42,685 nucleotides of DNA from a virus: the IMG/VR virus record IMGVR_UViG_3300022744_000048, positions 1 to 42,685 of that record; one strand, given 5' to 3'. The notes under the pieces are model-generated. The model had not been told where the DNA came from. It ran no database searches and worked only from the letters and a program-made list of their open reading frames with translations. Shown here one piece after another: positions 10,773 to 36,811 of this stretch. The position numbers and the translations under genes were made by a program. The first letter of the stretch is position 1. Every line of letters begins with the position of its first letter.

Positions 10773-10895
10773 CCTCGCACTCACCCGGCGGGCGTGTGGG
10801 TATTGGTCGAGGGTTTGAATGATCGCGTCGCAGCTTGAGGCCGCCCGGATCACATGCGCCGGGGCCGCGTCGGTGTTGATCAGATAGTCGCGCAT
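10755..10895 (-). CDS. Small hypothetical protein (46 aa)
   Basis: A short gene that is easily missed. The ATG (10895-10893) shares one base with the TAA of the upstream leftward gene (TAATG), the same coupling used repeatedly in this genome. The product is 46 aa, starts MRDYLINTDAAPAHVIRAAS and ends RLFAQP, with amphipathic helix character. Its 3' end overlaps the end of Rz convergently by 18 bp. No family is recognised. Support comes from the coupling and the gap it fills. Confidence 0.55.
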   Translation of the reverse strand: MRDYLINTDAAPAHVIRAASSCDAIIQTLDQYPHARRVSARLFAQP

Positions 10896-11209
10896 TACGC
10901 TTGCCCCCGGGCGTCGTCGATTGCGCTTTGAACGTCGGCAACGTCGAACCCGTCGAGGGCGTCGAATAGTTCCTCGACCGTGCTTATCGCGTTTTCGAGT
11001 TGGCTCAAACCGTTTTCCATATCCTGACCGCGCTCGCCGCTTTGAATGGATTCGGGCAAGTTATCGAACGCCTCTTGTTCGTCGTCGCGAACGCTTTCGA
11101 GGTCGCCTTTGATGGCTTCGAGTTCGGGGGTAATTTCGGCAATACGAATGCCGACTCGTTCGAGGCGGTCGATTATGGCCCCGAGTTGTGCGCGTCGTGC
11201 TTTGTTCAT
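10895..11209 (-). CDS. Conserved phage protein, coiled-coil
   Basis: Encodes 104 aa. I chose ATG 11209, with GGAG 8 nt upstream, rather than the ATG at 11242, which would lie on the promoter -10. It is almost entirely helical with heptad-like spacing (ERVGIRIAEITPELEAIKGD). The segment DDEQEAFDNLPESIQ with GERG after it recurs in many small phage proteins of unknown function. It is the first gene behind a class I promoter repeat (11222-11274) and couples to the 46-aa gene downstream. Confidence 0.75.
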   Translation of the reverse strand: MNKARRAQLGAIIDRLERVGIRIAEITPELEAIKGDLESVRDDEQEAFDNLPESIQSGERGQDMENGLSQLENAISTVEELFDALDGFDVADVQSAIDDARGQA

Positions 11210-11221
11210 TTGCGTTTCTCC

Positions 11222-11274
11222 GTTGCGTTGTTGATGGCTCAATTATGCAACACGAAATCAAATAACGCAATACC
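11222..11274 (-). promoter_or_regulatory. Class I leftward promoter repeat, copy 1
   Basis: On the minus strand: -35 TTGCGT (11270-11265), 17-bp spacer, -10 CATAAT (11247-11242), then the leader GAGCCATCAACAACGCAAC. The same block occurs at about 23570, 24291, 26341 and 27101. It begins right after the stop of the DNA polymerase gene and drives 10895-11209. A TTGA-N4-TCAA palindrome overlaps the expected transcription start. Confidence 0.75.
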
Positions 11275-15266: not shown

Positions 15267-15295
15267 ATTATGCAACACTTGACGAAAAAGTCAAG
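15267..15295 (-). promoter_or_regulatory. Class II promoter with CTTGAC-N6-GTCAAG operator (site A)
   Basis: Minus strand: -35 TTGACT (15294-15289), 16-bp spacer, -10 CATAAT (15272-15267). The perfect 18-bp dyad CTTGAC-N6-GTCAAG (15278-15295) covers the -35 and spacer. The whole element lies in the last codons of the upstream nuclease gene, whose TAA is inside the -10. It would drive the SSB-to-polymerase operon. Confidence 0.75.
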
Positions 15296-17211: not shown

Positions 17212-17242
17212 AGTATATTAGGCACTTGCCGAATCCGTCAAG
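17212..17242 (-). promoter_or_regulatory. Class II operator-promoter (site C), divergent region
   Basis: The dyad CTTGCCGAATCCGTCAAG (17225-17242) matches the CTTGAC-N6-GTCAAG operator with one mismatch. On the minus strand TTGACG (17241-17236) is a -35 and TATACT (17217-17212) a -10 with an 18-bp spacer, for gene 16425-17180. The same 83-bp gap must also hold the rightward promoter for the helicase at 17264, for which I see no strong hexamers. Confidence 0.65.
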
Positions 17243-19009: not shown

Positions 19010-19314
19010 AAAAACCGTTAGTCGTTGTCCCAATTAGCGGCGGTAAAGATTCGCAAGCGTGCCTAAAACTCGCGATTGAAAATTTTGGGAATCAAAACGT
19101 GCGAGGGCTTTTTTGTGATACCAAATGGGAACATCCCTTGACTTACGAACACGTCGAAAAAATGAAAACGCTTTATGGCGTCGAAATCGACAAGGTGAAC
19201 GCGGGTTCGGTCGAAGAAAAAATAATAAAGCACGGCACATTCCCGGTCGGCGGGCAAAGGTTTTGCACCGAGGAATTGAAGTTGTGGCCCGCCAAACGCT
19301 ATTACCATTTTTAG
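19006..19314 (+). CDS. PAPS reductase-like protein, N-terminal part (frameshifted)
   Basis: Encodes 102 aa before a TAG stop. The P-loop SGGKDS (residues 11-16) and GLFCDTKWEHPLTYEH identify the adenine-nucleotide alpha-hydrolase fold of PAPS reductases and DndC-like proteins. The start overlaps the helicase stop (ATGA). The homologous C-terminal half is intact in the -1 frame (19311-19760). The break is at a run of five T (19308-19312): CAT TTT TAG. One additional T, or a -1 ribosomal slip, restores a 251-aa protein. Either a sequencing error, a mutation or programmed frameshifting. Confidence 0.8.
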   Translation: MKKPLVVVPISGGKDSQACLKLAIENFGNQNVRGLFCDTKWEHPLTYEHVEKMKTLYGVEIDKVNAGSVEEKIIKHGTFPVGGQRFCTEELKLWPAKRYYHF

Positions 19315-19760
19315 CCGCAAGTTTCGGCGAAGGGTTTGAAGTTTGGTTAGGTATGCGATCTGATGAAAGTCGCGAACGATCAGTTCGGTACGCCGGGAAA
19401 GTCGGTTCTGACGTGTATGCACCGCACGAAGTTTTACACAAATTTCCGAAACGCTTGGAAAAATTGGGCGTCATGTTTCGACTGCCGATTCTCGAATGGT
19501 CAGTCGACGACGTGAAAGATTATGTCGGTTCGGAAAATTTGAACCCGCTCTATAACCACGGGTTTGACCGTGTCGGGTGTTTTCCTTGCGAAGCGGGCGG
19601 CGAGGCTACGCGCGAACGTGCGTACAACTTTGACGATTTCGGTCGCGAACAACATCGGCGAGTTATTGCAATTTCAAAAGTGATTGATAAGCCGGTTTGG
19701 CGAACAAAATCCCGTCAACATTTGAACGACGGCCCGGGATGTTCTTTTTGCAGTTGGTGA
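19311..19760 (+). CDS. PAPS reductase-like protein, C-terminal part (-1 frame)
   Basis: An open frame of 149 codons that continues the preceding protein after the T-run. It starts at the Leu codon 19311, where a -1 shift would land. Contents: FGEGFEVWLGMRSDESRERS, a linker, then GCFPCEAGG and GCSFCSW at the end. The two CxxC pairs, with RFC in the N-terminal half, could hold an iron-sulfur cluster as in DndC and assimilatory reductases. It may participate in nucleotide or tRNA/DNA thiolation, or in sulfur metabolism; the exact substrate cannot be inferred. Confidence 0.75.
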   Translation, partial: LAASFGEGFEVWLGMRSDESRERSVRYAGKVGSDVYAPHEVLHKFPKRLEKLGVMFRLPILEWSVDDVKDYVGSENLNPLYNHGFDRVGCFPCEAGGEATRERAYNFDDFGREQHRRVIAISKVIDKPVWRTKSRQHLNDGPGCSFCSW

Positions 19761-20255: not shown

Positions 20256-20284
20256 CTTGACGAACCCGTCAACTCGAATACAAT
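20256..20284 (+). promoter_or_regulatory. Class II operator-promoter of the TetR-like gene (site D)
   Basis: -35 TTGACG (20257-20262), 16-bp spacer, -10 TACAAT (20279-20284). The dyad TTGAC-N6-GTCAA (20257-20272) lies between the hexamers. The ATG at 20291 is 6 nt after the -10, so the transcript should start at or next to the A of ATG (leaderless). The arrangement suggests autorepression by the adjacent TetR-like product. Confidence 0.75.
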
Positions 20285-20290
20285 TTCCCA

Positions 20291-20605
20291 ATGTCAAAAA
20301 ATCAACCCAAACTAGAAGCCCGCGAACGGATCGCCCAAATCCTCGCCGCAGCCCTCGCAATCGCACCCCGCAAGGGTTATGCGCGCATTACGCGCGAGGA
20401 AATCGCCGAGCGTGCGAAGGTGCCCCCGTCGCTCATTACTTACCATTTCGGCACCATGCCCGAGCTACGTCGCGACATCATGCGCGAGGCCGTTCGCGTT
20501 GAATGCTTGCCGGTAATTGCGCAAGGTTTGGCGGCGAAGGATCGCCACGCAATGAAAGCCCCCGAGGAAATTCGCGCACGCGCAATCGAATCACTACGGG
20601 GTTAA
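20291..20605 (+). CDS. Short TetR-like DNA-binding regulator
   Basis: Encodes 104 aa. Residues about 10-58 match the TetR N-terminal domain: RERIAQILAAALAIAPRKGY, then ITREEIAERAKVPPSLITYH (helix-turn-helix) and FGTMPELRRDIMREAV. TetR proteins are usually about 200 aa with a ligand/dimerisation domain. Here only about 45 residues follow, so it is a minimal form. The gene has its own promoter with a TTGAC-N6-GTCAA dyad that recurs in front of three other operons, so it is the best candidate for the early-gene regulator. There is no ribosome site. Confidence 0.8.
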   Translation: MSKNQPKLEARERIAQILAAALAIAPRKGYARITREEIAERAKVPPSLITYHFGTMPELRRDIMREAVRVECLPVIAQGLAAKDRHAMKAPEEIRARAIESLRG

Positions 20606-20608
20606 ATC

Positions 20609-22984
20609 GTGCAATCATTGCCCCCGGCCCTCGCGCCGCTTGCCGCGTATCGGCAATTTCTTTGTTATCAACTCGTGCCGAGTTCACGCCCCGGCAAAAT
20701 GGATAAATTGCCCGTGTCGCCCCATACCGGGCACACATGCGCCGCGCACGACCCCGCCAATTGGACAACGGCCGAACACGCGTGCGCGGTCGCGACGCAT
20801 TGGGGCGCAGGCTTCGGCGTGGGCTTCGTGTTCACTGCGAACGATCCGTTCTTTTTCGTCGATATTGACGAATGTTTCGACGGCAAGGTGTGGTCGACCA
20901 CGGCCCAAAAGGTCGCCGCGTTGTTTCCCGGTGCCGCTATGGAATTGAGCCAATCCGGCCGGGGGGTGCACATTTTCGGTATGGGGCAAGCCCCGGCGCA
21001 CGGCAAGAAAAACGCCGCGCTCGGCATGGAGTTTTATACCGAATTACGCTTTGCAGCCTTGACCGGCGTCGGCGCAATGGGTAACGCAGCAACCGACCAC
21101 ACGGCGGCCCTCTATGCGATCACGGCTGACTATTTTCCCCCGGGTGCGGGTATGGGTGCCGACGGCGACTTTTCGTTGTCTGACGCCCCCGTCGCTGAAT
21201 GGCGAGGCCCTACCGACGACGCCGAGTTGTTGCGCCGTGCGTTGAACTCACGAAGCGCGGCCGGTGCGTTCGGCACCCGGGCGAGTTTTGCCGACCTTTG
21301 GGACGCGAACGCCGAGGTGTTGGCTAAGGTGTACCCCGACGGCGGCGGGCGCATGTATGACGCCTCACAAGCCGACGCGGCCCTCGTGTCACATTTGGCA
21401 TTTTGGACGGGTCGCCACGGCACGCGAATTTTGTCCCTTATGCGTCAGTCGAAACTCGTGCGCGAAAAATGGAGTCGTGAAGATTACTTACCCCGCACGA
21501 TTGCCGAAATCCTCGCGCGCCCGGGTGACGTGTTGACCGACAAGGCCCCCGAACCGCCGAGCGTGCCGCAGGCGGCCGCCGAAGCCCCCACGCAGTCCGA
21601 CGTCACCGGCAACACCTTTTTGCAGCCTGACGCGCAAAAGGCCCTTTTTAATGGCTGCGTCTACGTGCAAGACCGGCACCGCGTTTTAGTACCGGGCGGG
21701 GCCTTGTTGAAACCCGATCAATTCCGGGTCGCGTTCGGCGGTTACGCGTTCGCTATGGATGCAGTCAACGAACGAACAAGTCGCAACGCGTGGGAAGCGT
21801 TCACCGAATCGCAAGTTTTGCGCGCACCCCGGGCCGACACGATTTGTTTTAAACCCAACGAGGCTCCCGGGGCGATATTGAACGACGCGGGTCGCCTGCG
21901 CGTTAATACCTATTGGCCCGCCAACGTGCGGCGAAGTGTGGGCGACGTGACGCCCTTCGTCGATCACTTGCGCCGCGTCTTGCCTGACGAACGCGATCAA
22001 CAAATCTTATTGTCTTACATGGCCGCATGTGTGCAACACAAGGGGGTTAAATTCCCGTGGGCACCCGTCTTGCAAGGTGCCGAGGGTAACGGTAAAACGC
22101 TTTTTTCAGCCTGCGTTGCCGAGGCGGTCGGGCAACATTACACGCATTGGCCGAAAGCAAAAGACATTCTGAGCGACTTCAACGGATGGATCGCGAACAA
22201 AGTTTTTATCGCCTTGGAAGAATTGCGCGGGTCGGATCACCTTTCAACCGAGGATATTGTCGAGGCGTTGAAAACCTTGATTACCGGGGGCATGGGCATT
22301 CAGGTTCAATTTAAGGGCGTGGATCAGGAATCCATGAGTATTTGCGCGAATTTTTTGATCACCACGAACTACCGAACCGCCATTCGCAAGACGCCCGACA
22401 ACGCTCGCCGCTTCGCCTTGTTCTACACGGCCCAACAAACAAAGGCCGATATTGATCGTTCGGGCATGGGCGGCGATTACTTCCCCCGCCTTTATGACTG
22501 GCTCAAGCATCAAGACGGGTTCGCGATTGTTTCCGAGTTGCTTCACACGTACCCAATAAACCCCGAGTTCAACCCCGCCGGATCAATGCACCGCGCGCCC
22601 GATACGTCGACAACCGACCTCGCAATCGTCGAGAGTCGCGGCGGCGTCGAGCAACAAATCGCCGAGGTGATCGCGCAAGACACGCCCGGATTTATGGGCG
22701 GTTGGGTTTCGTCGGTCATGCTCGACCGCTTGATCACCGACACGCTCAAAATGGGCAACCGTTTGTCGCACATGAAACGGCGCGAAATGTTGCAGGGCAT
22801 GGGGTACATATTGCACCCCGGGCTAGTCGACGGCCGCGTAAACAACCCGGTGCAGCCTGACGGGCGCAAACCTCAATTGTTCATTTTGGCGAATCACCCC
22901 GACGCCCGGATCGTGGGGGCCGCCGACATTGCCCGGGCCTATAGCCTCGCGCAGTCGACAAGCCCGTTCAAGGTGCAATCATGA
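20609..22984 (+). CDS. Primase-helicase (primpol N terminus, DUF5906-like helicase)
   Basis: Encodes 791 aa from GTG 20609, 3 bp after the regulator gene. The N-terminal domain resembles archaeo-eukaryotic primase-polymerases: FFFVDIDE (D85, D87) and SGRGVHIFG. A linker (about 310-345) leads to an SF3/DUF5906-type ATPase: Walker A GAEGNGKT (K496), Walker B-like KVFIALEEL, and ANFLITTNYR (sensor). The C terminus is a winged-helix-like region. This architecture is seen in phages such as NrS-1 and supplies priming and unwinding. With the family B polymerase it forms a self-sufficient replisome. Confidence 0.9.
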   Translation: MQSLPPALAPLAAYRQFLCYQLVPSSRPGKMDKLPVSPHTGHTCAAHDPANWTTAEHACAVATHWGAGFGVGFVFTANDPFFFVDIDECFDGKVWSTTAQKVAALFPGAAMELSQSGRGVHIFGMGQAPAHGKKNAALGMEFYTELRFAALTGVGAMGNAATDHTAALYAITADYFPPGAGMGADGDFSLSDAPVAEWRGPTDDAELLRRALNSRSAAGAFGTRASFADLWDANAEVLAKVYPDGGGRMYDASQADAALVSHLAFWTGRHGTRILSLMRQSKLVREKWSREDYLPRTIAEILARPGDVLTDKAPEPPSVPQAAAEAPTQSDVTGNTFLQPDAQKALFNGCVYVQDRHRVLVPGGALLKPDQFRVAFGGYAFAMDAVNERTSRNAWEAFTESQVLRAPRADTICFKPNEAPGAILNDAGRLRVNTYWPANVRRSVGDVTPFVDHLRRVLPDERDQQILLSYMAACVQHKGVKFPWAPVLQGAEGNGKTLFSACVAEAVGQHYTHWPKAKDILSDFNGWIANKVFIALEELRGSDHLSTEDIVEALKTLITGGMGIQVQFKGVDQESMSICANFLITTNYRTAIRKTPDNARRFALFYTAQQTKADIDRSGMGGDYFPRLYDWLKHQDGFAIVSELLHTYPINPEFNPAGSMHRAPDTSTTDLAIVESRGGVEQQIAEVIAQDTPGFMGGWVSSVMLDRLITDTLKMGNRLSHMKRREMLQGMGYILHPGLVDGRVNNPVQPDGRKPQLFILANHPDARIVGAADIARAYSLAQSTSPFKVQS

Positions 22985-23173: not shown

Positions 23174-23209
23174 AAATCCCCCGGGTTTGATTACTCGGGG
23201 GATTTTTTT
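23174..23209 (+). terminator. Rho-independent terminator after the replication operon
   Basis: A perfect 10-bp stem (AAATCCCCCG at 23174-23183 with CGGGGGATTT at 23196-23205), a 12-nt loop and a run of seven T (23203-23209). It ends rightward transcription from 17264 and also covers the stop of the convergent gene at 23208. On the minus strand there is no matching T-run, so it is mainly one-directional. Confidence 0.93.
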
Positions 23210-23444
23210 ATTTGGGGATACTGCGAACCCATTCACGCTCGATTGCGTCGAGTAATAGGTTTAAGGCCCGGATTTTGCCGCCTGACGTGTGGCGAGCTTG
23301 CGCCCCGTGGGTTGAAAAGTCGCCGTCGGGATAAATCACCCGGTACACCCCGGGCAACTTTTCAAAGCGCAGGCACATTGGGTGCCCTTGAACCTTGAGT
23401 TCAAGCCCCGCGACAATCGCCGCGAGTTCTTTCGGGCCGGTCAT
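23208..23444 (-). CDS. Hypothetical protein (78 aa)
   Basis: Encodes 78 aa. ATG 23444 overlaps the stop of the preceding 37-aa gene (TAATG); the ATG at 23471 would lie inside that gene. The product is a compact alpha/beta protein (LELKVQGHPMCLRFEKLPGV, then IYPDGDFSTH). No family is recognised. It is the second gene of the cassette behind promoter copy 2. Confidence 0.65.
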   Translation of the reverse strand: MTGPKELAAIVAGLELKVQGHPMCLRFEKLPGVYRVIYPDGDFSTHGAQARHTSGGKIRALNLLLDAIEREWVRSIPK

Positions 23445-23557
23445 TAGATAAACCCCAAAATGGGATGCCAATGAGTCAGCAAAGCCCCGCGATTTACAGC
23501 ATCGATGAATTCCCGCATTGATGCGAAATATGCTTCGCGCATAAGATTTTCAGTCAT
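23444..23557 (-). CDS. Small hypothetical protein (37 aa)
   Basis: A 37-aa gene starting at ATG 23557, with GAGG 8 nt upstream, directly behind class I promoter copy 2 and TAATG-coupled to 23208-23444. The sequence starts MTENLMREAYFASMREFIDA and ends HWHPILGFI. The frame is open further upstream, but only through the promoter, so the short start is preferred. No function known. Confidence 0.55.
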   Translation of the reverse strand: MTENLMREAYFASMREFIDAVNRGALLTHWHPILGFI

Positions 23558-23569
23558 TTTGTGACCTCG

Positions 23570-23637
23570 TGTTGTTGATGGCTCAATTATGCAACACGAA
23601 ATCAAATAACGCAATACCCAATTGCAACGCGGGGTTA
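23570..23637 (-). promoter_or_regulatory. Class I leftward promoter repeat, copy 2
   Basis: Minus strand: -35 TTGCGT (23614-23609), 17-bp spacer, -10 CATAAT (23591-23586), leader GAGCCATCAACAAC. The upstream part (TAACCCCGCGTTGCAATTGG) is shared only with copy 3 and begins at the stop codon of the upstream gene. It drives the 37-aa and 78-aa genes. Confidence 0.75.
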
Positions 23638-23787
23638 TTCTAGTAATTCGTACCCGCCGAGCAACGCAAGCAACTTGCGGCGAAGTGCCTTTGCCGAGGC
23701 GAACAAGCCCGCAGCCTTTAGCGTCTTGATCCGGGCGCGAAGGTCGTCGGCTTCGCGTTGCTGCGTGGGGGTTAGCGTGCGGCGCAT
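23635..23787 (-). CDS. Small hypothetical basic protein (50 aa)
   Basis: Encodes 50 aa from ATG 23787, which lies inside the end of the upstream membrane-protein gene (16-bp overlap). It is a helical, basic protein (TLTPTQQREADDLRARIKTL, then GLFASAKALRRKLLALLGGY). The frame is open back to 23868 but that part is a shadow of the upstream gene. No family is recognised. Confidence 0.6.
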   Translation of the reverse strand: MRRTLTPTQQREADDLRARIKTLKAAGLFASAKALRRKLLALLGGYELLE

Positions 23788-23930
23788 AGCAAGAGGCCCA
23801 ACAAGACGACCACAACAACCCACACGAGGCGCGGCGCGCGTGGGCGTTCGTACCGTGTCACCGCGCACCCGTAATCGGCCGTATGCCGAAAGGCTTCGTC
23901 GAGTGTCCGGGCGTAACGTCGAGTATTCAT
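23772..23930 (-). CDS. Small single-span membrane protein (52 aa)
   Basis: Encodes 52 aa from ATG 23930 with ribosome site AAAGG. A soluble N terminus (MNTRRYARTLDEAFRHTADY) is followed by a C-terminal membrane segment (RLVWVVVVVLLGLLLCAAR), so it is a tail-anchored type. It follows the gene at 23975 after a GC hairpin (23952-23967). No family recognised; small early membrane proteins often act in host takeover or superinfection exclusion, but nothing here proves that. Confidence 0.65.
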   Translation of the reverse strand: MNTRRYARTLDEAFRHTADYGCAVTRYERPRAPRLVWVVVVVLLGLLLCAAR

Positions 23931-23951
23931 AGAACGACCTTTCGAGAGTGT

Positions 23952-23967
23952 GGGGGCCTGCACCCCC
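23952..23967 (-). other. Intercistronic GC hairpin
   Basis: GGGGG and CCCCC separated by 6 nt lie between the stop of 23975-24280 and the ribosome site of 23772-23930. A similar hairpin lies at 25818-25838 in the same position of another cassette, followed by the same (A)CACTC-N-CGAAAGGT leader. There is no T-run, so it is more likely an attenuator or mRNA-processing/stability element than a terminator. Confidence 0.5.
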
Positions 23968-23974
23968 GGGGTTG

Positions 23975-24280
23975 TTAGAAGTTGGTATAAAAGCCGGTCG
24001 CCTCGGTGAATGCCGCTTGCAACTTGTCGGCGTACACGTCGCGAACGGCGTCGCCGCATTGCTTCACGTTGACACCGCGCACGCTGAAAAACTCCAAGGT
24101 GTAGAGGTCGGATGCTTCGAGCGTGATTTTGACTTTGTTCGCCTTGTTCTTAGTGCCACGGCCGACGCTGAATTGCAAGAAGTTAGAACCGCCGACAAAG
24201 TTTTTCGATCCGGTCATGACGGCAAAGCGTGTGCCGCCGAGTTGTTGCAGGATGGTTTGCGCGATGGTTGGGTTTTGCAT
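23975..24280 (-). CDS. Conserved phage hypothetical protein (101 aa)
   Basis: Encodes 101 aa, starting ATG 24280 with a GGAG ribosome site behind promoter copy 3. The pattern FAVMTGSKNFVGGSNFLQFS, then NKVKITLEASDLYTLEFF and GVNVKQCGDAVRDVYADKL, recurs as an uncharacterised small protein in many phages and bacteria. It is probably a small alpha/beta protein. No function known. Confidence 0.75.
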   Translation of the reverse strand: MQNPTIAQTILQQLGGTRFAVMTGSKNFVGGSNFLQFSVGRGTKNKANKVKITLEASDLYTLEFFSVRGVNVKQCGDAVRDVYADKLQAAFTEATGFYTNF

Positions 24281-24290
24281 TTTTAACTCC

Positions 24291-24362
24291 GTTGCGTTGT
24301 TGATGGCTCAATTATGCAATACAAAATTAAATAACGCAATACCCAATTGCAACGCGGGGTTA
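24291..24362 (-). promoter_or_regulatory. Class I leftward promoter repeat, copy 3
   Basis: Minus strand: -35 TTGCGT (24339-24334), 17-bp spacer, -10 CATAAT (24316-24311), leader GAGCCATCAACAACGCAAC. Three base changes in the spacer distinguish it from copies 1, 2 and 4. The upstream end shares TAACCCCGCGTTGCAATTGG with copy 2, including the stop codon of the preceding gene. Confidence 0.75.
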
Positions 24363-24485
24363 TTTGCGCCGAGCAAGTGCCCGGGCGAGCATCATCACCG
24401 CGTCGTCACGGCCGCGCAGGAACGCAAGTCGAAACGCAGTAACGACAAGCCCGACCGGGTACGCGATCAACGCAGGGCCGAACAC
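24360..24485 (-). CDS. Small membrane protein, start uncertain
   Basis: A short open frame directly after the ParB-like gene, ending at 24360. The residues are clearly protein-like with one or two membrane segments (FGPALIAYPVGLVVTAFRLAF) and a basic tail (MMLARALARRK). No ATG fits: GTG 24485 gives 41 aa; an ATA at 24512, overlapping the ParB stop as ATAA, would give 50 aa. Longer in-frame ATGs lie deep inside the ParB-like gene. Start choice is therefore uncertain. Confidence 0.5.
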   Translation of the reverse strand: MFGPALIAYPVGLVVTAFRLAFLRGRDDAVMMLARALARRK

Positions 24486-24508
24486 GAGTGCGAACGTGAT
24501 TTTTTCTT

Positions 24509-25321
24509 TTATGACCGCCCCAACAAACGACGGGCCGTTGTGATCAAGTCGACGACTTCCTCGCGGCGGTGCGTGGCGATTGGGTTCATATCGGCGACGC
24601 GCGTCACGAACTCGGCGAAGGCGTTCGACGGTGCCGCAGGGGGCGGGGGTAGGGTTTGGCCGCGTGGCTTCGGTTCGACGTGCTTTGCGGTCGCTTTCGC
24701 CTTGCCGCTTGCCTTCGCAGTGTCGAGGGCCTTCGCGAGCGTTGCGGCGGCCTTGGTGCCCTCTTTGCGTACCGTCTTGACGGCAAGCGAGGCCGACACG
24801 GTGCCCGCCGCGACCATGCTTTGCACTGCGACCGGGGCGTCGGCGAGTGCGAGGGCGTTTTCGACGGTCGAGCGGTGAACGCCGAGGCGGGCCGCAATGG
24901 CTGCGACGTCTTGCCCCATGTTCACGAGTCGCATATATCCCCGGGCAACTTCGACCGGCGAAAAACTCTTGCGTTGATCGCTCCCGAGCATGTGAAACAC
25001 GGCGTCGGCTTCGTTGCCGCGCACTTGACGGGCTTCGAGCATATAGCCTTCGATGCGACGAGCGGCACGGGTGCGGCAATGGCCGTCGCGAACGATCATG
25101 CGACCATCCACGACCGACAAGTCAATCGCGGGGACGTGTGCCCCGGCACGCATGGCCGCTTCGAGTTGGTCGATATGGGCGTCGAGTTCGGGGCCTTCGT
25201 CGCGCAGATTGAAGCCGACTTCAAATTCGACCGCATCGGGGCGAACCTTAAACGTCGTCGCTTTTTGAATGCCGTCGGCTTTGCTTTCGGCTAGGGCTTT
25301 GAGGGAAACGGGAGCGTTCAT
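24509..25321 (-). CDS. ParB/Spo0J-like protein
   Basis: Encodes 270 aa. The ParB N-terminal nuclease-like domain is recognisable at residues about 25-110 (GFNLRDEG, IDLSVVDGRMIVRDGHCRTR). KorB-like helix-turn-helix DNA-binding follows (FSPVEVARGYMRLVNMGQDV, then IAARLGVHRSTVENALALA). The C terminus is Ala/Lys/Pro-rich. No ParA gene is present in this genome, so partition is unlikely. A transcriptional or DNA-organising role, or a CTP-dependent clamp, is more plausible. Driven by operator-promoter site B. Confidence 0.85.
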   Translation of the reverse strand: MNAPVSLKALAESKADGIQKATTFKVRPDAVEFEVGFNLRDEGPELDAHIDQLEAAMRAGAHVPAIDLSVVDGRMIVRDGHCRTRAARRIEGYMLEARQVRGNEADAVFHMLGSDQRKSFSPVEVARGYMRLVNMGQDVAAIAARLGVHRSTVENALALADAPVAVQSMVAAGTVSASLAVKTVRKEGTKAAATLAKALDTAKASGKAKATAKHVEPKPRGQTLPPPPAAPSNAFAEFVTRVADMNPIATHRREEVVDLITTARRLLGRS

Positions 25322-25355
25322 TTTTAAGAGTCTTTCAAGGGTTGAGGGTTTGAGG

Positions 25356-25384
25356 ATTATGCAACACTTGACGGGAATGTCAAG
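25356..25384 (-). promoter_or_regulatory. Class II promoter with CTTGAC-N6-GTCAAG operator (site B)
   Basis: Minus strand: -35 TTGACA (25383-25378), 16-bp spacer, -10 CATAAT (25361-25356). The perfect dyad CTTGAC-N6-GTCAAG spans 25367-25384. It lies in the last codons of the upstream gene, whose TAA is inside the -10, exactly as at site A. It drives the ParB-like gene. Confidence 0.78.
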
Positions 25385-25797
25385 CGGTTAATTATCGTCG
25401 TCGGGATCACACACGTCGCAGTTCGGGCGGTCGGGGCAATCGTTTGCAATACACCACGGCCGCGAAAGTGGCGACCGTCGCCGGTTGCCGTGGTGATTTC
25501 GTGGCGTTCGACACACTCGGGCGAGTGAACCCCGCCGCGCACGGCGTTACAGTTCGGCCCCTTGCAAAGTTGGTCGGAGTGCGGGAGCATCGCGCGACGG
25601 GCTGCGCGTTCCTCGGCAAGTGTCCAAGTGCGCCCGTTAGCCTTTGCGGCCGTGAGTTCTGATTGTGTTTTGAGTTCGAGCGCGGCGACTTCGGTTTCGT
25701 CGAGGGCGTCGAGCAACCAATGAATGACGCGGGCGGCCTCGGGATCGGTGCGGGTGCGACCGTTGGCGATGGTGCGGCAATACTCTTTTGAGTACAT
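25357..25797 (-). CDS. Hypothetical protein (146 aa)
   Basis: Encodes 146 aa from ATG 25797 with AAAGG ribosome site. The N-terminal 75 residues are a helical domain (MYSKEYCRTIANGRTRTDPE, then DALDETEVAALELKTQ), and a middle block has CKGPNC and SPEC cysteines. The last about 45 residues look less protein-like and end LTFPSSVA, encoded by operator site B. In the -1 frame a Cys/Asp-rich peptide (25388-25516) looks more like a natural C terminus, so the true end may be different. No family recognised. Confidence 0.6.
   Translation of the reverse strand: MYSKEYCRTIANGRTRTDPEAARVIHWLLDALDETEVAALELKTQSELTAAKANGRTWTLAEERAARRAMLPHSDQLCKGPNCNAVRGGVHSPECVERHEITTATGDGRHFRGRGVLQTIAPTARTATCVIPTTIINRLTFPSSVA
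25388..25516 (-). CDS. Possible nested Cys/Asp-rich small ORF
   Basis: An open frame of 42 codons (GTG start possible at 25516, no ribosome site), in -1 relative to the 25357-25797 gene. Its C-terminal half reads RPWCIANDCPDRPNCDVCD then DDDN, with four regularly spaced cysteines like a zinc-binding knuckle and an acidic tail. This composition is unlikely in random shadow frames. It may be the true C terminus of the overlapping gene after a frameshift, or a separate small protein. Confidence 0.35.
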   Translation of the reverse strand: MCRTPRNHHGNRRRSPLSRPWCIANDCPDRPNCDVCDPDDDN

Positions 25798-25817
25798 GGG
25801 AAACCTTTCGGGAGTGT

Positions 25818-25838
25818 GGGCGACCACGCAGGCCGCCC
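25818..25838 (-). other. Intercistronic hairpin
   Basis: An 8-bp stem (one G-U pair in RNA) with a 5-nt loop, between the stop of 25848-26330 and the AAAGG site of 25357-25797. It resembles the hairpin at 23952-23967 in position and in the leader sequence after it. No T-run. Confidence 0.5.
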
Positions 25839-25847
25839 GGGGTTGAT

Positions 25848-26330
25848 TTATTTCACGCTAACCAAAACGCGAAGGTGCAAACACTGGATGTTGTAACCGC
25901 CTGCGCGGATCGTGCGAACCTCGACACGCTTGTCGCCTTTGTTGGTAGTCACGCGAAAGATTCCGTCGAAACCGTCGCGGGTGTGGGTGAACTTGGTTTC
26001 GGTGACGTCGGTCACTTCGGCGGCGGTGAGTTTCTTCGCGATCATTGCGTTACGCTTTGCAACAACGGCGGCGCAATTTTTGGTCATAAATTCGTCAATT
26101 GCTGCGGCGGTGTTTTGGTTAAACAAGGCATACCAAGTTTTACCCCCGGCGATTGTGTGCAACTTTGGATACAAGGCCCACACGTTGCGGCGCAGGGCTT
26201 GATATTCTTCACTTGCCTTGAAGGTAGCCAACGCAGCGACGCGACTGCGTGCCCATTCTTTCGACGACTCCAAAACTTCGGCATCCATTGGGGCGAAAAC
26301 TTCGTTCAGTTGGTTGATGATGGTTTGCAT
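25848..26330 (-). CDS. Hypothetical protein (160 aa)
   Basis: Encodes 160 aa from ATG 26330 (GAGG upstream), first gene behind promoter copy 4. It is helical in the N-terminal two thirds (ASEEYQALRRNVWALYPKLH, then TAAAIDEFMTKNCAAVVAKR). A C-terminal beta section follows (FDGIFRVTTNKGDKRVEVRT). No known family is recognised. The ribosome-site region is nearly the same as that of 23975-24280, showing that the leader was copied together with the promoter. Confidence 0.7.
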   Translation of the reverse strand: MQTIINQLNEVFAPMDAEVLESSKEWARSRVAALATFKASEEYQALRRNVWALYPKLHTIAGGKTWYALFNQNTAAAIDEFMTKNCAAVVAKRNAMIAKKLTAAEVTDVTETKFTHTRDGFDGIFRVTTNKGDKRVEVRTIRAGGYNIQCLHLRVLVSVK

Positions 26331-26340
26331 TTTTAACCTC

Positions 26341-26393
26341 GTTGCGTTGTTGATGGCTCAATTATGCAACACGAAATCAAATAACGCAATACC
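26341..26393 (-). promoter_or_regulatory. Class I leftward promoter repeat, copy 4
   Basis: Identical over its 53 bp to copy 1: -35 TTGCGT (26389-26384), 17-bp spacer, -10 CATAAT (26366-26361) on the minus strand, leader through AACGCAAC. It starts immediately after the TAA of gene 26394-26699. Confidence 0.78.
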
Positions 26394-26699
26394 TTATTGT
26401 TTCGTAGGGTTAATAAGTTGCTCGACCGCGTCGATATTGGTCGGGGTGACGATCAGTTTCGCGAGGCGATACCGTGCCGCCCTGCAACGCTCGGCCATGA
26501 CTTGCGCGTTCGACGGTACGGTCGCGGGGCCGCAGTCGGCAAAGCGTGCCAACCCATAAGGCCGCCCGTCGGCTTTGCTGAATGTGCTCCCGCCTGCGGT
26601 GAAGCGGGTCGGGGTGACACCGGTCACGGGAACGACGCGTTGCACATAGTCAAGGCGAACCGCGACAAGGTCGCCGACTTTTACGTTTTCCATGATCAT
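26394..26699 (-). CDS. Hypothetical protein (101 aa)
   Basis: Encodes 101 aa. ATG 26699 overlaps the upstream TGA (ATGA); ATGs at 26711 and 26693 are alternatives. The N-terminal half is a small beta barrel-like segment (VKVGDLVAVRLDYVQRVVPV, then GVTPTRFTAGGSTFSKADGR) with a look of KOW/SH3-type domains. The C-terminal part is helical. No family is recognised. Coupled to the zinc-ribbon gene in the cassette of promoter copy 5. Confidence 0.65.
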   Translation of the reverse strand: MIMENVKVGDLVAVRLDYVQRVVPVTGVTPTRFTAGGSTFSKADGRPYGLARFADCGPATVPSNAQVMAERCRAARYRLAKLIVTPTNIDAVEQLINPTKQ

Positions 26700-27082
26700 A
26701 AAATTTCCCATGTTTCAAGGTTATGGGCCGCAGCAATGGCCCGGGCGGTTTCGTCGGCGGCGTGGGCGGCCGGTGCGACGAATGCGTGAAACTCACGGCC
26801 GGGGCGTAACCCGGCGCGCGACGCTTCGGCGAGTTTGGCTTGATAGGCCAAAAATTCAGGGGTTGCGCGGTGCAACTTGCGGGCCGCGACTTTGCGTTCG
26901 TCACGAGCGGCGACGATTGCTTGTTTGATTTGGCTCGAAGTCTTGCCCGTGTGGCGTGTCGCGCATGTCGAACCATAGTGCAACACCTCGCCGCCAATGT
27001 CGACCATGACGGTAAATTTCAAGCCCGATTTGCCGCAGCATTCGCAGGCGTTGACGGCGTCGTTCGTTCCTAAAATTTTCAT
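26696..27082 (-). CDS. Zinc-ribbon-like conserved protein (128 aa)
   Basis: Encodes 128 aa from ATG 27082. The N-terminal motif ACECCGKSGLKFTVMVD followed by GGEVLHYGSTCATRH gives a CxCC...C arrangement found in small bacterial and phage zinc-binding proteins. A long helix (IKQAIVAARDERKVAARKLH) and a helical C terminus follow. Function unknown. First gene behind promoter copy 5; the leader between promoter and ATG is GC-rich and different from the other copies. Confidence 0.7.
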   Translation of the reverse strand: MKILGTNDAVNACECCGKSGLKFTVMVDIGGEVLHYGSTCATRHTGKTSSQIKQAIVAARDERKVAARKLHRATPEFLAYQAKLAEASRAGLRPGREFHAFVAPAAHAADETARAIAAAHNLETWEIL

Positions 27083-27100
27083 GGTGCGGCCCCGGTTGTT

Positions 27101-27145
27101 TGTTGATGGCTCAATTATGCAACACGAAATTTATTTGCGCAACAC
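27101..27145 (-). promoter_or_regulatory. Class I leftward promoter repeat, copy 5 (diverged)
   Basis: Minus strand: -35 TTGCGC (27142-27137), 17-bp spacer, -10 CATAAT (27119-27114), leader GAGCCATCAACAA. The spacer is partly different (AAATAAATTTCGTGTTG) but the -10 region and leader are identical to the other copies. Confidence 0.7.
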
Positions 27146-27146
27146 T

Positions 27147-27344
27147 TTATTTTAAATTCTCGCAAAAAGTTTTCGCCGCCTGCACGTCGTCGGGGTGAAT
27201 GCGTACCGATAGGCCGTTGCGGCGGTAACGCGTGGGCGGCGGGGGTAGCCCTCGGGCCGCGCTTAGTTGATTGCAAAAGCCCCACGCGGCCGACACCTTG
27301 AGGGGCGGTAAATCAAATTCAAACCGGGCGAGTTTTGATTTCAC
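27147..27344 (-). CDS. Small hypothetical protein (65 aa)
   Basis: Encodes 65 aa and overlaps the upstream gene by 4 bp (ATGA). It is compact, with a Trp/Phe-containing N terminus (SKLARFEFDLPPLKVSAAWG) and IHPDDVQAAKTFCENLK at the C terminus. The latter echoes HPDDHAAAWAYCQAL in the upstream neighbour (27341-27763), so the two may share a small helical module. No family known. Confidence 0.65.
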   Translation of the reverse strand: MKSKLARFEFDLPPLKVSAAWGFCNQLSAARGLPPPPTRYRRNGLSVRIHPDDVQAAKTFCENLK

Positions 27345-27763
27345 TTGATCACCCCGAGGGCTTTCAATTGATCAGCCATTGCCGGGGCGAGCGTGGTCGA
27401 TTGCTCGGGTGGGACGTCGTGACCCTTGAACGCAGCAACCCGGGCGGCGACCACGTCAAAAGGTGCCGCAGGCTGCGTGCCGGGGCGTTGGGTAGGGATC
27501 GCACCCCGGGCGAGGTCGAGGGCCTGACAGTAAGCCCATGCGGCGGCGTGGTCGTCGGGATGCGCGAGGGGATAAACGAACTTCCCGTCGGTTTTGTTGG
27601 CTTGTTGCCCGAACGCTTTCGAGCGTGCCGCATTACAGGCAACGCAACCGCCCGTCGTGACGAAGCGTTCGGCGGTGTGACCGTGAGCGCACGGGCGGCC
27701 CGTGAAGAATCGGCGAAGCCCTGCGGCGTGGGCGTCTTTACGTGTGATTATTTGCAGTGTCAT
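27341..27763 (-). CDS. Putative zinc-binding/HNH-associated protein (140 aa)
   Basis: Encodes 140 aa from ATG 27763 with GAGG upstream. The N-terminal segment ITRKDAHAAGLRRFFTGRPC, AHGHTAERFVTTGGC, VACN is the CxHGH...CxxC module frequently found at the start of phage HNH-type endonucleases. No HNH core follows; the C-terminal part is Ala/Pro-rich with helices and contains HPDDHAAAWAYCQ. It may be a DNA-binding zinc module without nuclease. It is the first gene leftward of the 27764-28076 intergenic region. Confidence 0.6.
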   Translation of the reverse strand: MTLQIITRKDAHAAGLRRFFTGRPCAHGHTAERFVTTGGCVACNAARSKAFGQQANKTDGKFVYPLAHPDDHAAAWAYCQALDLARGAIPTQRPGTQPAAPFDVVAARVAAFKGHDVPPEQSTTLAPAMADQLKALGVIK

Positions 27764-28076
27764 AGCGGCCTCTAAGTATTAGATGCGCAGTGTATCACAT
27801 ACGTTCTACAAGTTTTTAACCGAAAAGGGGTAAAAACCCTTACCAACCGGACATTTAAAAACCTACAACAGTAGCGAACAGATATGATTAGGTATGTAAT
27901 GTGTATATATGCATCATAGTGTATACATTCTTATTTATAATTTATTTATAGAGTTAAAGGGGTAAAGAGTAGATAAGTGATTGATTTATATAGGGAAAAT
28001 GGCAACCGGCGAAAAGTAACCGGGTTTTGACCGTGGGTGTTTTGTGGGTGCGTGTCGTATCGTGTAGTATCCGCAT
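27764..28076. other. AT-rich intergenic region before the terminase genes
   Basis: 313 bp with no convincing gene, in sharp AT contrast to the rest of the genome. It contains an inverted repeat (27825-27844), two copies of GTGTATA (27901 and 27919) and two copies of TTATTTATA with an 11-bp period (27931 and 27942). It separates leftward early genes from rightward late genes. Candidate for replication origin, packaging (pac/cos) recognition or both. A promoter for 28077 is at its right end. Confidence 0.6.
28042..28070 (+). promoter_or_regulatory. Putative late promoter for the terminase genes
   Basis: -35 TTGTGG (28042-28047), 17-bp spacer, -10 TAGTAT (28065-28070). The ATG at 28077 is 6 nt after the -10, the same distance as at site D, so a leaderless transcript is expected. 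No ribosome site is visible before ATG 28077. Confidence 0.5.
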
Positions 28077-32818: not shown

Positions 32819-33070
32819 ATGGAACGCAGCACAGTTTTAAACGGCGCACCCGAGGCGATTAGCGTCGGCGCGTTGGCGAGCGACAACGCGATTATTTTCC
32901 CCGACGACTTAGCGCAGGCTATGGGCTACGATGGAGCGGGCAACTTGACGACAATCACCGTCGTCGTTCCCCCTACCCCGGGCACGTCTTACGGCGGCGG
33001 GACATATGTTCAAACCCTGACATATACGTCAGGCCGATTAACCAACGTATCACGATGGGTGAAGCAATGA
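32819..33070 (+). CDS. Hypothetical protein in head region (83 aa)
   Basis: Encodes 83 aa, beta-rich (NLTTITVVVPPTPGTSYGGG, then TYVQTLTYTSGRLTNVSRWV). A small protein of this type, with a TYVQTLTYTSGRLTNVS-like end, often stands before or inside fibre or head-decoration operons. Its stop overlaps the start of the deacetylase gene (ATGA). It may form part of the same structure as the deacetylase-bearing protein, but that is inferred only from coupling. Confidence 0.6.
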   Translation: MERSTVLNGAPEAISVGALASDNAIIFPDDLAQAMGYDGAGNLTTITVVVPPTPGTSYGGGTYVQTLTYTSGRLTNVSRWVKQ

Positions 33071-35148
33071 GTTTTCTAGTTGAATTTCGCAAAGCCCTTG
33101 CAGTTTTTAAAGTTGCAACTTTAAAAACCGATCCCCTCACCGGGGGGCTAACTGGCATTCAAGCGCCCGATGGGAGCGTTCTTCCTAGCGCAACCGGAAC
33201 ACCGCTCGGCAAATACCTCGGCCAGATTTCCGGAAAACAGGGTGCGGCGTCTCGGACGTATCGAGGCGCATTTGGCCGCAAGGTAGCTAGCTGGTCGAGC
33301 GCATTGCAAAACCAAGCTGGTACTGTTGCGCTGGTTTCCGGCGATTTGCCGCCTTTGGCTGACAACGCCACCCAAGTTTTGCAACTCACTCAAAACGTAA
33401 CGGCGTCGTTTGGGCAGCAAAATCCGCTTGACGCAGGGCAAGCGTATTTGCCGGTGAGTGCAACAGTCGCGCCCAACATGGGCGTTTGGGTGAAGAACCA
33501 AGGCACCCGCACGCTGAACTTTGAACTGCGTGTTTTTAACGCTGCCGCAAACCGCACGCTGACATGGAACGGGGCGATTGAGCCAACGAACCAATGGCAG
33601 TTCATGACATTTTCCGCCTCGCAAGCGGTGGCAGGGGGTGGCTGGGTTTTCGGAACAGATGTGATTGCGTATGTTCGAATCACTCAGAAAGACAACGGCC
33701 CCGCTGGGGCATGGCAGGCTGGCGAATATTTGAAGTTCGGCAACGTCTACGCTGATGTGAAGGCCCGACCCCGATTTTTGATAGGCTTCGACGATGGTTA
33801 TGCCAATGTGGTAACTCCAAACAACACCGCGCTGGTGTCTGGTGCCGCTGCGGTGACAAACACTGCGGCCAACGTACTGAATACAGGTGCGCCACACAAT
33901 TTGACGATTGGCGCACCTATCCGGTTCACCGACACTGCGCCCACATCGTTGACAGTTGGCACAACGTATTACGTCCAGACTGTTCCTTCGAACACCTCGT
34001 TTACGCTGGCAACCGACCAGTTTACGCTGCAAACAACTGCCACAACAACGGGCTTCGCGGGCACAGCCAACTGGCAATATGCAGGCTCTCAAGGTCGCAG
34101 CGGTCAGCAGATCGTTGAGGAATACGGCTTCCGTGGCACGCTGTTCATCGTCCCCGGCTGGCTGGGTTCGTCTGGCAAGTATGGATACGGAAGCACGCCA
34201 TCTGCGTTCATGAGTGCTGCGGACGTGCAGGCTATCTATGCTGCCGGATGGTCTGTGGGTAGTCACTCCAATAGTCACCCGAGCAACAACGAGAACGCCG
34301 GATTGAGGCTGCTGGGGCCTTACGGCTATTTCTTGAGCAATACGGTTGACAACCTGCCTGCGTCGTATGTGTCCGCGTGGGGATTGGGTGCAAGCAATCG
34401 ACGCCGGATTACCGCTGGCACACTGGCTTCTCCTTCTGTGTTCACTGCAGAAAATCCCCACCAGTTCCTGATCAACCAGCCGATTGTGTTCACTGACGTG
34501 GCTCCTACCGGGTGCACGCTGGGAGTGACGTATTACGTGGCATCGGTTCCCAGCAGCACAACTTTCACGCTGTCCACAGATCAGGGTTCGTTCACCAATA
34601 AAGTGAACAACACGACTGGTGCATGGGCAGGCCTTGCAAACTACCGGCACCCCGGCTCCAGCAACGACAGCAGCGCTATCTATGCGGATATTGCTGCAGG
34701 CATCGCCGGGGTGAAGGCGTTGAGCATCCCTACTGGAGCCAAGTTCTTTGCTCTCCCCCAAGGTGGCGCAGACGTTTACGTGAAAGCCGCTTGCATTCAG
34801 GCTGCGCTTGTGTGGATTCGGGGTATCGGCAGCACTGCGCACACGATCAACGTGGGACTTCCCTCTGGCGGAGGGCTTGCGGGGATGGCTGATTACAGTG
34901 GAGGCTGGCTGGCACAACAAGATGCTGTGCAGACAGACGGTGCGGGCTCGGTGCCGTTCTCCACCATCAAAACATACATTGACGAGACGGTGACGATGGG
35001 TGCTTGCGGGTGCAGCTATCACCACAGCACTGGCTTCACAACGATTGCCAACCTTGACCAGATGTGCGCCTACCTGCGTACCAAGGTCGATGCAAACCAG
35101 CTTGACGTACTGACGTGTGACGAGCTGGCGGCACTTGTAGGGTTCTAA
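33067..35148 (+). CDS. Polysaccharide deacetylase (NodB-like) structural or cargo protein
   Basis: Encodes 693 aa from ATG 33067 (ATGA overlap); ATG 33055 is less likely. An N-terminal beta-rich region (1-230) resembles a carbohydrate-binding or virion-attachment domain. NodB motifs follow: FDDG (D242, D243), SHSNSH (H400, H404), FALPQGG and CGCSYHH (H652/H653). Two homologous about 70-residue inserts (PHNLTIGAPIRFTDTAPT and PHQFLINQPIVFTDVAPT) interrupt the domain. Codon use differs from the phage, with Gln CAG and Leu CTG frequent. It would deacetylate surface polysaccharide, perhaps as a virion-borne depolymerase-like enzyme. Confidence 0.85.
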   Translation: MSFLVEFRKALAVFKVATLKTDPLTGGLTGIQAPDGSVLPSATGTPLGKYLGQISGKQGAASRTYRGAFGRKVASWSSALQNQAGTVALVSGDLPPLADNATQVLQLTQNVTASFGQQNPLDAGQAYLPVSATVAPNMGVWVKNQGTRTLNFELRVFNAAANRTLTWNGAIEPTNQWQFMTFSASQAVAGGGWVFGTDVIAYVRITQKDNGPAGAWQAGEYLKFGNVYADVKARPRFLIGFDDGYANVVTPNNTALVSGAAAVTNTAANVLNTGAPHNLTIGAPIRFTDTAPTSLTVGTTYYVQTVPSNTSFTLATDQFTLQTTATTTGFAGTANWQYAGSQGRSGQQIVEEYGFRGTLFIVPGWLGSSGKYGYGSTPSAFMSAADVQAIYAAGWSVGSHSNSHPSNNENAGLRLLGPYGYFLSNTVDNLPASYVSAWGLGASNRRRITAGTLASPSVFTAENPHQFLINQPIVFTDVAPTGCTLGVTYYVASVPSSTTFTLSTDQGSFTNKVNNTTGAWAGLANYRHPGSSNDSSAIYADIAAGIAGVKALSIPTGAKFFALPQGGADVYVKAACIQAALVWIRGIGSTAHTINVGLPSGGGLAGMADYSGGWLAQQDAVQTDGAGSVPFSTIKTYIDETVTMGACGCSYHHSTGFTTIANLDQMCAYLRTKVDANQLDVLTCDELAALVGF
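33103..33128. repeat. Perfect 26-bp palindrome
   Basis: 13-bp arms meet without spacer at the TTGCAA centre: GTTTTTAAAGTTG and its reverse complement. It encodes VFKVATLK within the start of the deacetylase gene and lies next to the point where base composition and codon use change. Candidate recombination joint, protein-binding site or cruciform. Confidence 0.9.
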
Positions 35149-35179: not shown

Positions 35180-36811
35180 ATGACACTCAAAAAGGGAACG
35201 ACCCCCGACGTAATCGGGGCGAACATCGCCGAGCTAGTCGCCAACGGTCACGCCCCGGCGCAGGCTGCGGCGATTGCTTACAACGCTACCCAATGCGACG
35301 ACCGGGCGGCGGTGATCGCTTACCGTTGCGGCGAATCGGTGTTGCTCGTGTTGCGCGCGTCGACCGCAGGCGATTACCCCCACACATGGGGATTCGTCGG
35401 CGGCACGATTGAACCGGGCGAGACTCCCGAGCAATGCGCCATTCGCGAGAGTCAAGAGGAAATCGGATACACGACCGGCGACCCGCTCGCCGTGTTGGAT
35501 TACTTCGACGGCGTGACGACGTTCGGCGTCAACGTCGCGGCACCCTTCGTGCCCGTCTTGAATGGCGAGCATGTGGGCTACGTGTGGGCACCCTTGCACG
35601 CGTTGCCGCAACCCCTGCACCCCGGCACGGCCGCGACCCTCGCCATGTTGCCTGCGGGCGGCGTGGGTATGGATGCGCGCACCGTTGACGGTAACGGATG
35701 GTTCGAAGTCAAGGCGAACCCGATCAGCAAGGCGGGAATTTTTGAATACTCGGGCCGCCAACTCGGCAAGACCGGCCCCGAGGCCGACAAAATTTTCAAG
35801 GTGCTACGGCCGCCCGAGGAATTGAGCGACCCCGAATGTATCGCGTCATTTAAGTTGATCCCGTGGATCGACAATCATGTGATGCTCGGGCCGACCGCGC
35901 AGGAACTGACCGATAAAGCAATGCCCGCCGAACAAAAAGGGGTTCAAGGTGTTATCGGCGAAAACGTATTTTTTAAAGATGGCACGTTGTTTGCGAATAT
36001 CAAGGCGTTTTCGTCTACACTGGCGCAATTAATCGCGGCCGGTAAACGAGAGTTGTCGGCGGGTTATCGGTGTATTTACGACTTTACGGCGGGCGTGTGG
36101 AACGGCCAAAGTTATGACGTGGTGCAACGGAAAATCAGGGGCAATCATCTTGCCCTTGTTAATGAGGGGCGCATGGGGCCGGACGTGGCCGTTATGGATC
36201 GCCTGACTTTTTCATTCGACGCTAAGGAGCTAAATCAAATGGCTGACGAACAAAAGACCGAAGGCGGCGGCGGGGGCGCGGGTGATATGACCCTCGCCGA
36301 AGTGATCGCCGTCGTTTCCCAACTCGCCCCGCAAGTTGCAAAACTGACCGAGGCATTCGCGGGCATGGGTGGCAAACCCGCCGAATCCGCGATTGAAACC
36401 GACAAGGCGTTGCCCGCCGAGGCCGGTGCAGGCGCGACACAAAACGCAGGCGAGGGAACCCCCGCAGGCGCGGCGACTGACGCCGACAAGATGGCACCCG
36501 CCGCAATGGACGAGGCCGCATTCGAACGCAAGTTTGTTGCCCGCATCGCCCGCCGCGATCAACTCGCCCGCCAAATTTCCGCGCACGTCGGCACGTTCGA
36601 CCACGCTGAAAAGACCCTCGACGAAGTCGTCGCGTATGGGCTTGATAAGCTCGGCGTGAAGGCCGACAAGGGTCACGAGGTCGCCGCCCTCGAAGGTTTC
36701 TTGCAAGCCAAAACGGCAAAACTTCCCGCCGCGACCGTGACGGGTATGGACGCCAAAGGCAACAAGGCCGAAGGCGATTTTGTAACCCGTCATTTGACAA
36801 AAGGGGAATAA
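35180..36811 (+). CDS. Nudix hydrolase - prohead protease - scaffold fusion (DUF2213)
   Basis: Encodes 543 aa. Residues 1-35 are a small helical module (TPDVIGANIAELVANGHAPA). Residues 40-150 are a Nudix domain with a perfect box G75-x5-E81-x7-R89-E90-x2-E93-E94-x-G96. Residues about 165-350 are DUF2213-like prohead protease (GIFEYSGRQLG, IPWIDNHVMLG, LSAGYRCIYDF). The last 190 residues (Ala/Gly-rich, helical) are scaffold and can be made separately from ATG 36239. The protease cuts scaffold and capsid proteins during maturation. The Nudix part may hydrolyse a nucleotide, or may now only be structural. Confidence 0.85.
   Translation: MTLKKGTTPDVIGANIAELVANGHAPAQAAAIAYNATQCDDRAAVIAYRCGESVLLVLRASTAGDYPHTWGFVGGTIEPGETPEQCAIRESQEEIGYTTGDPLAVLDYFDGVTTFGVNVAAPFVPVLNGEHVGYVWAPLHALPQPLHPGTAATLAMLPAGGVGMDARTVDGNGWFEVKANPISKAGIFEYSGRQLGKTGPEADKIFKVLRPPEELSDPECIASFKLIPWIDNHVMLGPTAQELTDKAMPAEQKGVQGVIGENVFFKDGTLFANIKAFSSTLAQLIAAGKRELSAGYRCIYDFTAGVWNGQSYDVVQRKIRGNHLALVNEGRMGPDVAVMDRLTFSFDAKELNQMADEQKTEGGGGGAGDMTLAEVIAVVSQLAPQVAKLTEAFAGMGGKPAESAIETDKALPAEAGAGATQNAGEGTPAGAATDADKMAPAAMDEAAFERKFVARIARRDQLARQISAHVGTFDHAEKTLDEVVAYGLDKLGVKADKGHEVAALEGFLQAKTAKLPAATVTGMDAKGNKAEGDFVTRHLTKGE
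36239..36811 (+). CDS. Internal in-frame start: scaffold protein
   Basis: ATG 36239 lies in frame with the protease gene and is preceded by a perfect AAGGAG (36224-36229) at 9-nt spacing, the best ribosome site in the region. It would give a 190-aa protein, MADEQKTEGGGGG... with helical EVIAVVSQLAPQVAKLTEAF and a charged C-terminal domain. This is the arrangement of lambda C/Nu3 and many DUF2213-type phages, where scaffold alone is made in excess over protease. Confidence 0.75.
   Translation: MADEQKTEGGGGGAGDMTLAEVIAVVSQLAPQVAKLTEAFAGMGGKPAESAIETDKALPAEAGAGATQNAGEGTPAGAATDADKMAPAAMDEAAFERKFVARIARRDQLARQISAHVGTFDHAEKTLDEVVAYGLDKLGVKADKGHEVAALEGFLQAKTAKLPAATVTGMDAKGNKAEGDFVTRHLTKGE

Follow-up and report, generated by a model that had tools for sequence, protein, structure and literature searches.

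Between the primase and terS of the phage record IMGVR_UViG_3300022744_000048 lies a leftward row of small genes, and the question raised by this locus is how such genes are gained, lost and expressed. The analysis covered the complete 42,685-base record, referred to here as the window. Because its first and last 130 bases (1-130 and 42556-42685) form an end repeat with 99% identity, the record is probably near complete and would represent a circularly assembled or terminally redundant genome. The island is bounded by two rightward genes, the primase (20609-22984, with DUF5906 and NrS-1 polymerase HBD domains) and terS (at 28077). An A+T-rich stretch between terS and the divergent first island gene (27780-28060) is a possible regulatory or origin region. 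The primase family is nearly absent from one-per-species cellular genomes (four metagenome-derived contigs), which fits, but does not prove, a virulent life style. Elsewhere in the window, the rightward replication operon includes a protein with a PAPS reductase-type domain (19125-19760), and a 697-aa structural-region protein (33055-35148) carries a polysaccharide deacetylase domain with a score at the Pfam cut-off.

The recurring element of the row is a 47-bp promoter/leader unit, termed the class I block (GTATTGCGTTATTTGATTTCGTGTTGCATAATTGAGCCATCAACAAC), which consists of a -35 TTGCGT, a 17 bp spacer, CATAAT and a leader. A second promoter type, class II, heads parB. The features of the row, read from the terS side, and of the one class I locus outside it are as follows.

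27341-27763, minus: 140-aa gene that opens the row; PHROG 1081, weak endonuclease VII-type match; conserved island opener in relatives
27147-27344, minus: 65-aa gene coupled to the 140-aa gene
27099-27145, minus: class I block, the most diverged copy (7 mismatches in 47); heads g128 and g101b
26696-27082, minus: g128, lead gene, 128 aa, CxCC cluster
26394-26699, minus: g101b, 101 aa, overlapping the g128 stop; weak PHROG 9662 match
26346-26392, minus: class I block, identical to the copies ending at 23617 and 11273; heads g160 and g146
25848-26330, minus: g160, lead gene, 160 aa; homolog in G006 and in 33 cultured phage records
25357-25797, minus: g146, second gene of the g160 cassette; stop inside the class II -10 element
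25356-25384, minus: class II promoter (TTGACA, CATAAT) with operator dyad CTTGAC-N6-GTCAAG; heads parB
24509-25321, minus: ParB-like protein, 270 aa; HTH_ParB, PHROG 1033
24360-24485, minus: small membrane-type protein after parB, 41 aa; no ATG, GTG start at 24485
24296-24342, minus: class I block, 3 mismatches; heads g101, g52 and g50
23975-24280, minus: g101, lead gene, 101 aa; PHROG 9437; class I block ahead also in G005, G006 and G011
23772-23930, minus: g52, 52 aa, C-terminal hydrophobic stretch; homolog in G005
23635-23787, minus: g50, 50 aa; homologs in G003 and G005
23571-23617, minus: class I block, identical to the copies ending at 26392 and 11273; heads g37 and g78
23444-23557, minus: g37, 37 aa
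23208-23444, minus: g78, 77 or 78 aa; final gene before the convergent primase
11227-11273, minus: class I block outside the island, directly past the DNA polymerase stop
10895-11209, minus: g104, coiled-coil lead gene
10755-10895, minus: 46-aa gene coupled to g104

The initial annotation had read this region as one promoter/leader block copied five times, each time directly behind a stop codon and ahead of small coupled genes, and most of that description stands. Five class I blocks are present, all on the minus strand, and no other position in the whole window lies within 20 mismatches of the 47-bp unit. Three are exact copies (ends at 11273, 23617 and 26392) and the copy at 24342 has 3 mismatches; the word "copy" fits the block at 27145 less well, as it is clearly more diverged. 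The copies at 23617 and 24342 have about 20 nt further upstream in common. The leader GAGCCATCAACAA occurs at five exact sites in the window and at six sites with at most two mismatches, a number reached in 0 of 100 shuffles. Each -35 element begins 0-16 nt past the preceding stop codon, every block heads small genes, and the blocks are confined to gene heads. Within the promoter of several genomes, a direct repeat GTRTTGCRTAAT recurs 20 bp apart with 9-11 of 12 positions identical; at least 10 identical positions are found at only 6 of 42,652 window positions. No terminator-like stem adjoins the island class I blocks of the window, and an Rfam search of the island gave no matches. The blocks are proposed to be sigma-70-like, host-type promoters with a ready-made leader and ribosome site. 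Because the sites are sigma-70-like, early transcription from them is plausible.

Parts of the initial description needed correction. The row opens with the 140-aa and 65-aa pair (27763-27147), which has no class I block, and the pair of ParB and membrane protein, whose class II promoter is real, belongs to a different, replication-linked promoter class. The gene sets are otherwise as described, apart from the length of g78 and the GTG start of the membrane gene. No relative of g146 was found. Homologs of g128 adjoin the DNA polymerase in one relative (L080) and lie beyond terS in another (L119), and an ARAGORN tRNA-Ile call opposite the g128 coding strand (26805-26890, plus) is probably false.

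Relatives were collected by IMG/VR searches with terS (25 loci), the primase (10) and a primase profile (80), in overlapping sets; the close relatives are all metagenome contigs. Islands suited to nucleotide comparison were those of the window and six relatives. From island to island, gene families differ and change order. This turnover, with no fixed gene set, agrees with the earlier proposal that cassettes are gained and lost. In each of G005, G006, G008 and G011, the island holds two to four class I blocks and a single further block follows a large replication-region gene elsewhere, all in the genome's own sequence version. The lead genes g101, g160 and g104 move, yet stand behind the block version of the resident genome (the more distant G010 left out). 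For instance, the first class I cassette of G005, G006 and G011 begins with g101, which leads the third one in the window island; g160 leads the second cassette of the window and in G006 is found close to the primase end. Similarly, g104 is found at the polymerase locus in the window and, behind a class I block, in the primase-terS island of G007, G008 and L070; over 283 nt, the block and g104 of G008 are 86% identical to L070, where they occupy another position in the row. Compared over 59 nt, blocks of one genome have an identity of 0.77 and those of different genomes 0.58 (0 of 5000 label permutations), a statistic that overstates independence. The blocks of L070 and G006 are not uniform, with within-genome identity as low as 0.44.

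The DNA polymerase (11278-13314) has homologs in G003 and G005; tblastn searches of G006, G008 and G011 gave none. A 791-aa ORF takes its place ahead of the class I block that lies outside the island in G006 and G008. Distant relatives (L089, L090, L093, L097, L102, L128, L144, G009 and G012) have repeated promoters of their own, and in several of them a different dyad, such as TTGACATAGATAAATAATTTATCTATAAT, lies between the -35 and -10 elements.

Individual junctions can be placed in the near-isogenic pair G008 and G011 (92.5% identity over 37 kb). A 1.1-kb cassette in G008 (35466-36578) stands in place of a 0.52-kb one of unrelated content in G011 (7407-7928), between flanks that are 86% and 93% identical. 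On the left, homology breaks off within the class I leader (G008 35466, G011 7407); on the right, it resumes at the first bases of the class II promoter (G008 36578, G011 7928). Outside the island, at the locus that corresponds to the polymerase locus, G011 has an extra 94-aa gene that fits exactly between the block and the stop upstream of it; G008 lacks this gene, and the genes past the block differ. A hairpin with a T-run lies ahead of one block in this pair. Within G006, the g101 and g160 cassettes share a nearly identical tract of about 75 nt, made up of spacer, -10, leader and the first eight codons (MQIAQTIL), and diverge on either side of it. This pattern indicates that the g101 cassette was the source of the block, leader and eight start codons that g160 now carries.

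Boundaries were also counted for gene-carrying nucleotide matches of at least 150 nt among the seven islands (n = 44). A promoter was present in both genomes at 14 of 32 upstream boundaries (0.14 expected under rotation) and at 5 of 40 downstream boundaries (0.18 expected), most of the latter lying outside any block; these counts overstate independence as the block identities do, the upstream one being inflated by non-independent pairs and by the likeness of the blocks themselves, and matches tend to end at blocks because the blocks are alike by descent or function. A first count, with 136 of 400 breakpoints in promoters, was inflated by short promoter-only matches and was discarded. The initial annotation had named breakpoints in the repeats as the check to make among relatives, and in the near-isogenic pair, in G006 and in the boundary counts homology does break at the blocks. 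The direct case for block-bounded exchange, as read from these alignments, comes mainly from the one near-isogenic pair and the one chimeric start.

We consider it likely that the class I blocks are sigma-70-like promoters that double as exchange points of an accessory region, which swaps small genes by recombination. Homologous recombination or gene conversion between blocks, within one genome or with a co-infecting relative, would swap, insert or remove one to three small genes flanked by two blocks. The same events would homogenise the blocks of one genome, while those of different genomes drift apart. Any gene that lands between blocks would find promoter, leader and start region in place and be expressed immediately. 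The comparisons show directly that blocks are repeated, that genes turn over, that breaks fall at blocks and that block versions are genome-specific; that transcription is early, that the exchange proceeds by homologous recombination and that the phage gains from it is what we infer from the arrangement.

The initial annotation had further expected host-takeover or anti-defence genes. That the row is an island dedicated to such tasks is a reading that concerns function, is compatible with the modular mechanism, and appears doubtful to us. The site beside replication genes, the small orphan genes and their strong variability are in keeping with it, but no cassette protein had a PADLOC match or, apart from ParB, an informative Pfam match, and the Pfam, PHROGs and PADLOC scans together gave nothing useful beyond ParB, PHROG 1081 and PHROG 9437. 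AlphaFold models of g101 (pLDDT 91) and g160 (pLDDT 85) likewise had no PDB fold match at E<=0.001. The g101 model had nine BFVD matches at E<=0.001, of which the named ones are uncharacterized phage proteins. The expectation is left without support by these searches, and a takeover or anti-defence role is neither supported nor excluded.

Block identity could instead reflect a regulon, in which one trans-acting factor recognises all blocks, selection on the regulon keeps them identical and gene turnover proceeds independently of them. Genome-specific block versions would be expected here too, the GTRTTGCRTAAT direct repeat is spaced as for a bound protein, and the repeated promoters of distant relatives have dyads in the spacer. 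However, similarity runs past the promoter into the leader, the upstream flank and even the first codons (G006), and one G006 block differs in its -35 half (TTGAC for TTGC) while the remainder is identical. ParB, a possible factor, is absent from the 41-kb G006 contig, which yet has five class I blocks; ParB was therefore ruled out as the class I regulator. On this evidence a regulon is an unlikely explanation of the likeness among blocks. Very improbable is entry by illegitimate recombination in the manner of morons, typically short genes with their own promoter, with promoters alike because the cassettes share a source: g101 and g160 do have homologs in unrelated phages, but the block version ahead of one and the same lead gene varies from genome to genome and is the resident one, and the Rhizobium phage homologs of both stand behind that phage's own repeated promoter.

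Recombination between class I blocks remains the preferred reading of the row. The dyad of the class II promoters, CTTGAC-N6-GTCAAG, occurs in the window with at most one mismatch at 15278, 17225, 20256 and 25367, and with at most two mismatches at seven sites (0.87 expected). Besides the parB promoter, the features concerned are the following.

15267-15295, minus: class II promoter with dyad; heads the operon of an Enc34-type single-strand-binding protein
17225-17242, no strand assigned: class II dyad with one mismatch, between the divergent helicase operon (plus) and 251-aa/DUF2800 operon (minus)
20256-20273, plus: dyad CTTGACGAACCCGTCAAC over the F1 promoter
20291-20605, plus: F1, TetR_N-type regulator, 104 aa; ahead of the primase in nearly all relatives

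The dyads stand over the single-strand-binding, helicase/251-aa, F1 and parB promoters. TetR_N (PF00440, E 6.4e-9, score 35.9 against a cut-off of 24) covers residues 17-60 of F1, and no C-terminal ligand-binding domain was found in its 104 residues. A dyad with at most one mismatch lies upstream of F1 in 39 of 62 distinct regions (0.12 in shuffles), and the spacing is 6 at 41 of 49 TTGAC sites, with 0-1 at any other spacing from 0 to 12. Similar dyads precede other replication genes in many relatives, and one precedes an annotated TetR gene in Acinetobacter phage Scuro. F1 is probably an autoregulator, and we infer an autoregulated replication regulon with a putative TTGAC-N6-GTCAA operator. 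The literature search found no paper on a TetR operator regulon of this kind. Such an operator would offer a handle on replication control in a large phage group mostly known from metagenomes only.

A broader reading, put forward tentatively, joins both promoter classes. Concertedly evolving, genome-specific units would form a docking platform that expresses any inserted gene, with g101 and g160 using equivalent platforms in unrelated phages, and a one-domain TetR-type protein would control the replication promoters through TTGAC-N6-GTCAA. In Rhizobium phage RHph_TM3_3_9, small genes are headed by some ten promoters of the type TTGAC...CCGAARCGGCTTATAA; the g160 and g101 homologs are among these genes, no more than about 1 kb apart and each behind that phage's repeated promoter. 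Both promoter sequence and phage differ from the present ones, and no description of these promoters as a cassette system was found in the literature. The annotation of Pseudomonas phage pf16 places a 'putative phage specific promoter' ahead of its g160 homolog.

Literature text searches for other repeated-promoter cassette systems returned none beyond PeSLs and SAS. The SAS/ESAS elements of cluster K mycobacteriophages are 13-bp repeats at the ribosome site, 3-7 bp from the start codon (PMC3203893). Like class I blocks, they stand directly before start codons, in the non-structural half and in one orientation (PMC3203893). However, SAS are shared across cluster K genomes (PMC3203893) whereas the class I version differs by genome, and class I is a full promoter and leader with a conserved core that ends before the ribosome site. 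Class I genes, in addition, change neighbours.

The closest precedent for class I cassettes is the promoter early stem-loops (PeSLs) of T4-type phages (Arbiol et al. 2010; Comeau et al. 2014, via PMC4503421). These are early-promoter units that recur in variable regions and are reported to mediate small-gene shuffling between related phages. Both systems have a repeated promoter ahead of small variable genes, in the window and its relatives alike, and gene exchange with breaks at the repeats (G008/G011, G006). The joined stem-loop terminator of PeSLs has no counterpart beside the island blocks of the window, and the copied class I unit takes in leader, ribosome site and sometimes first codons. 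The present phage is also an unrelated 42-kb virus, with genome-specific block versions. Its group would be the second one, independent of the first, where gene turnover has copied promoter units as its joints, and because its junctions are visible at base level, the uptake and immediate expression of accessory genes by a phage become directly testable.
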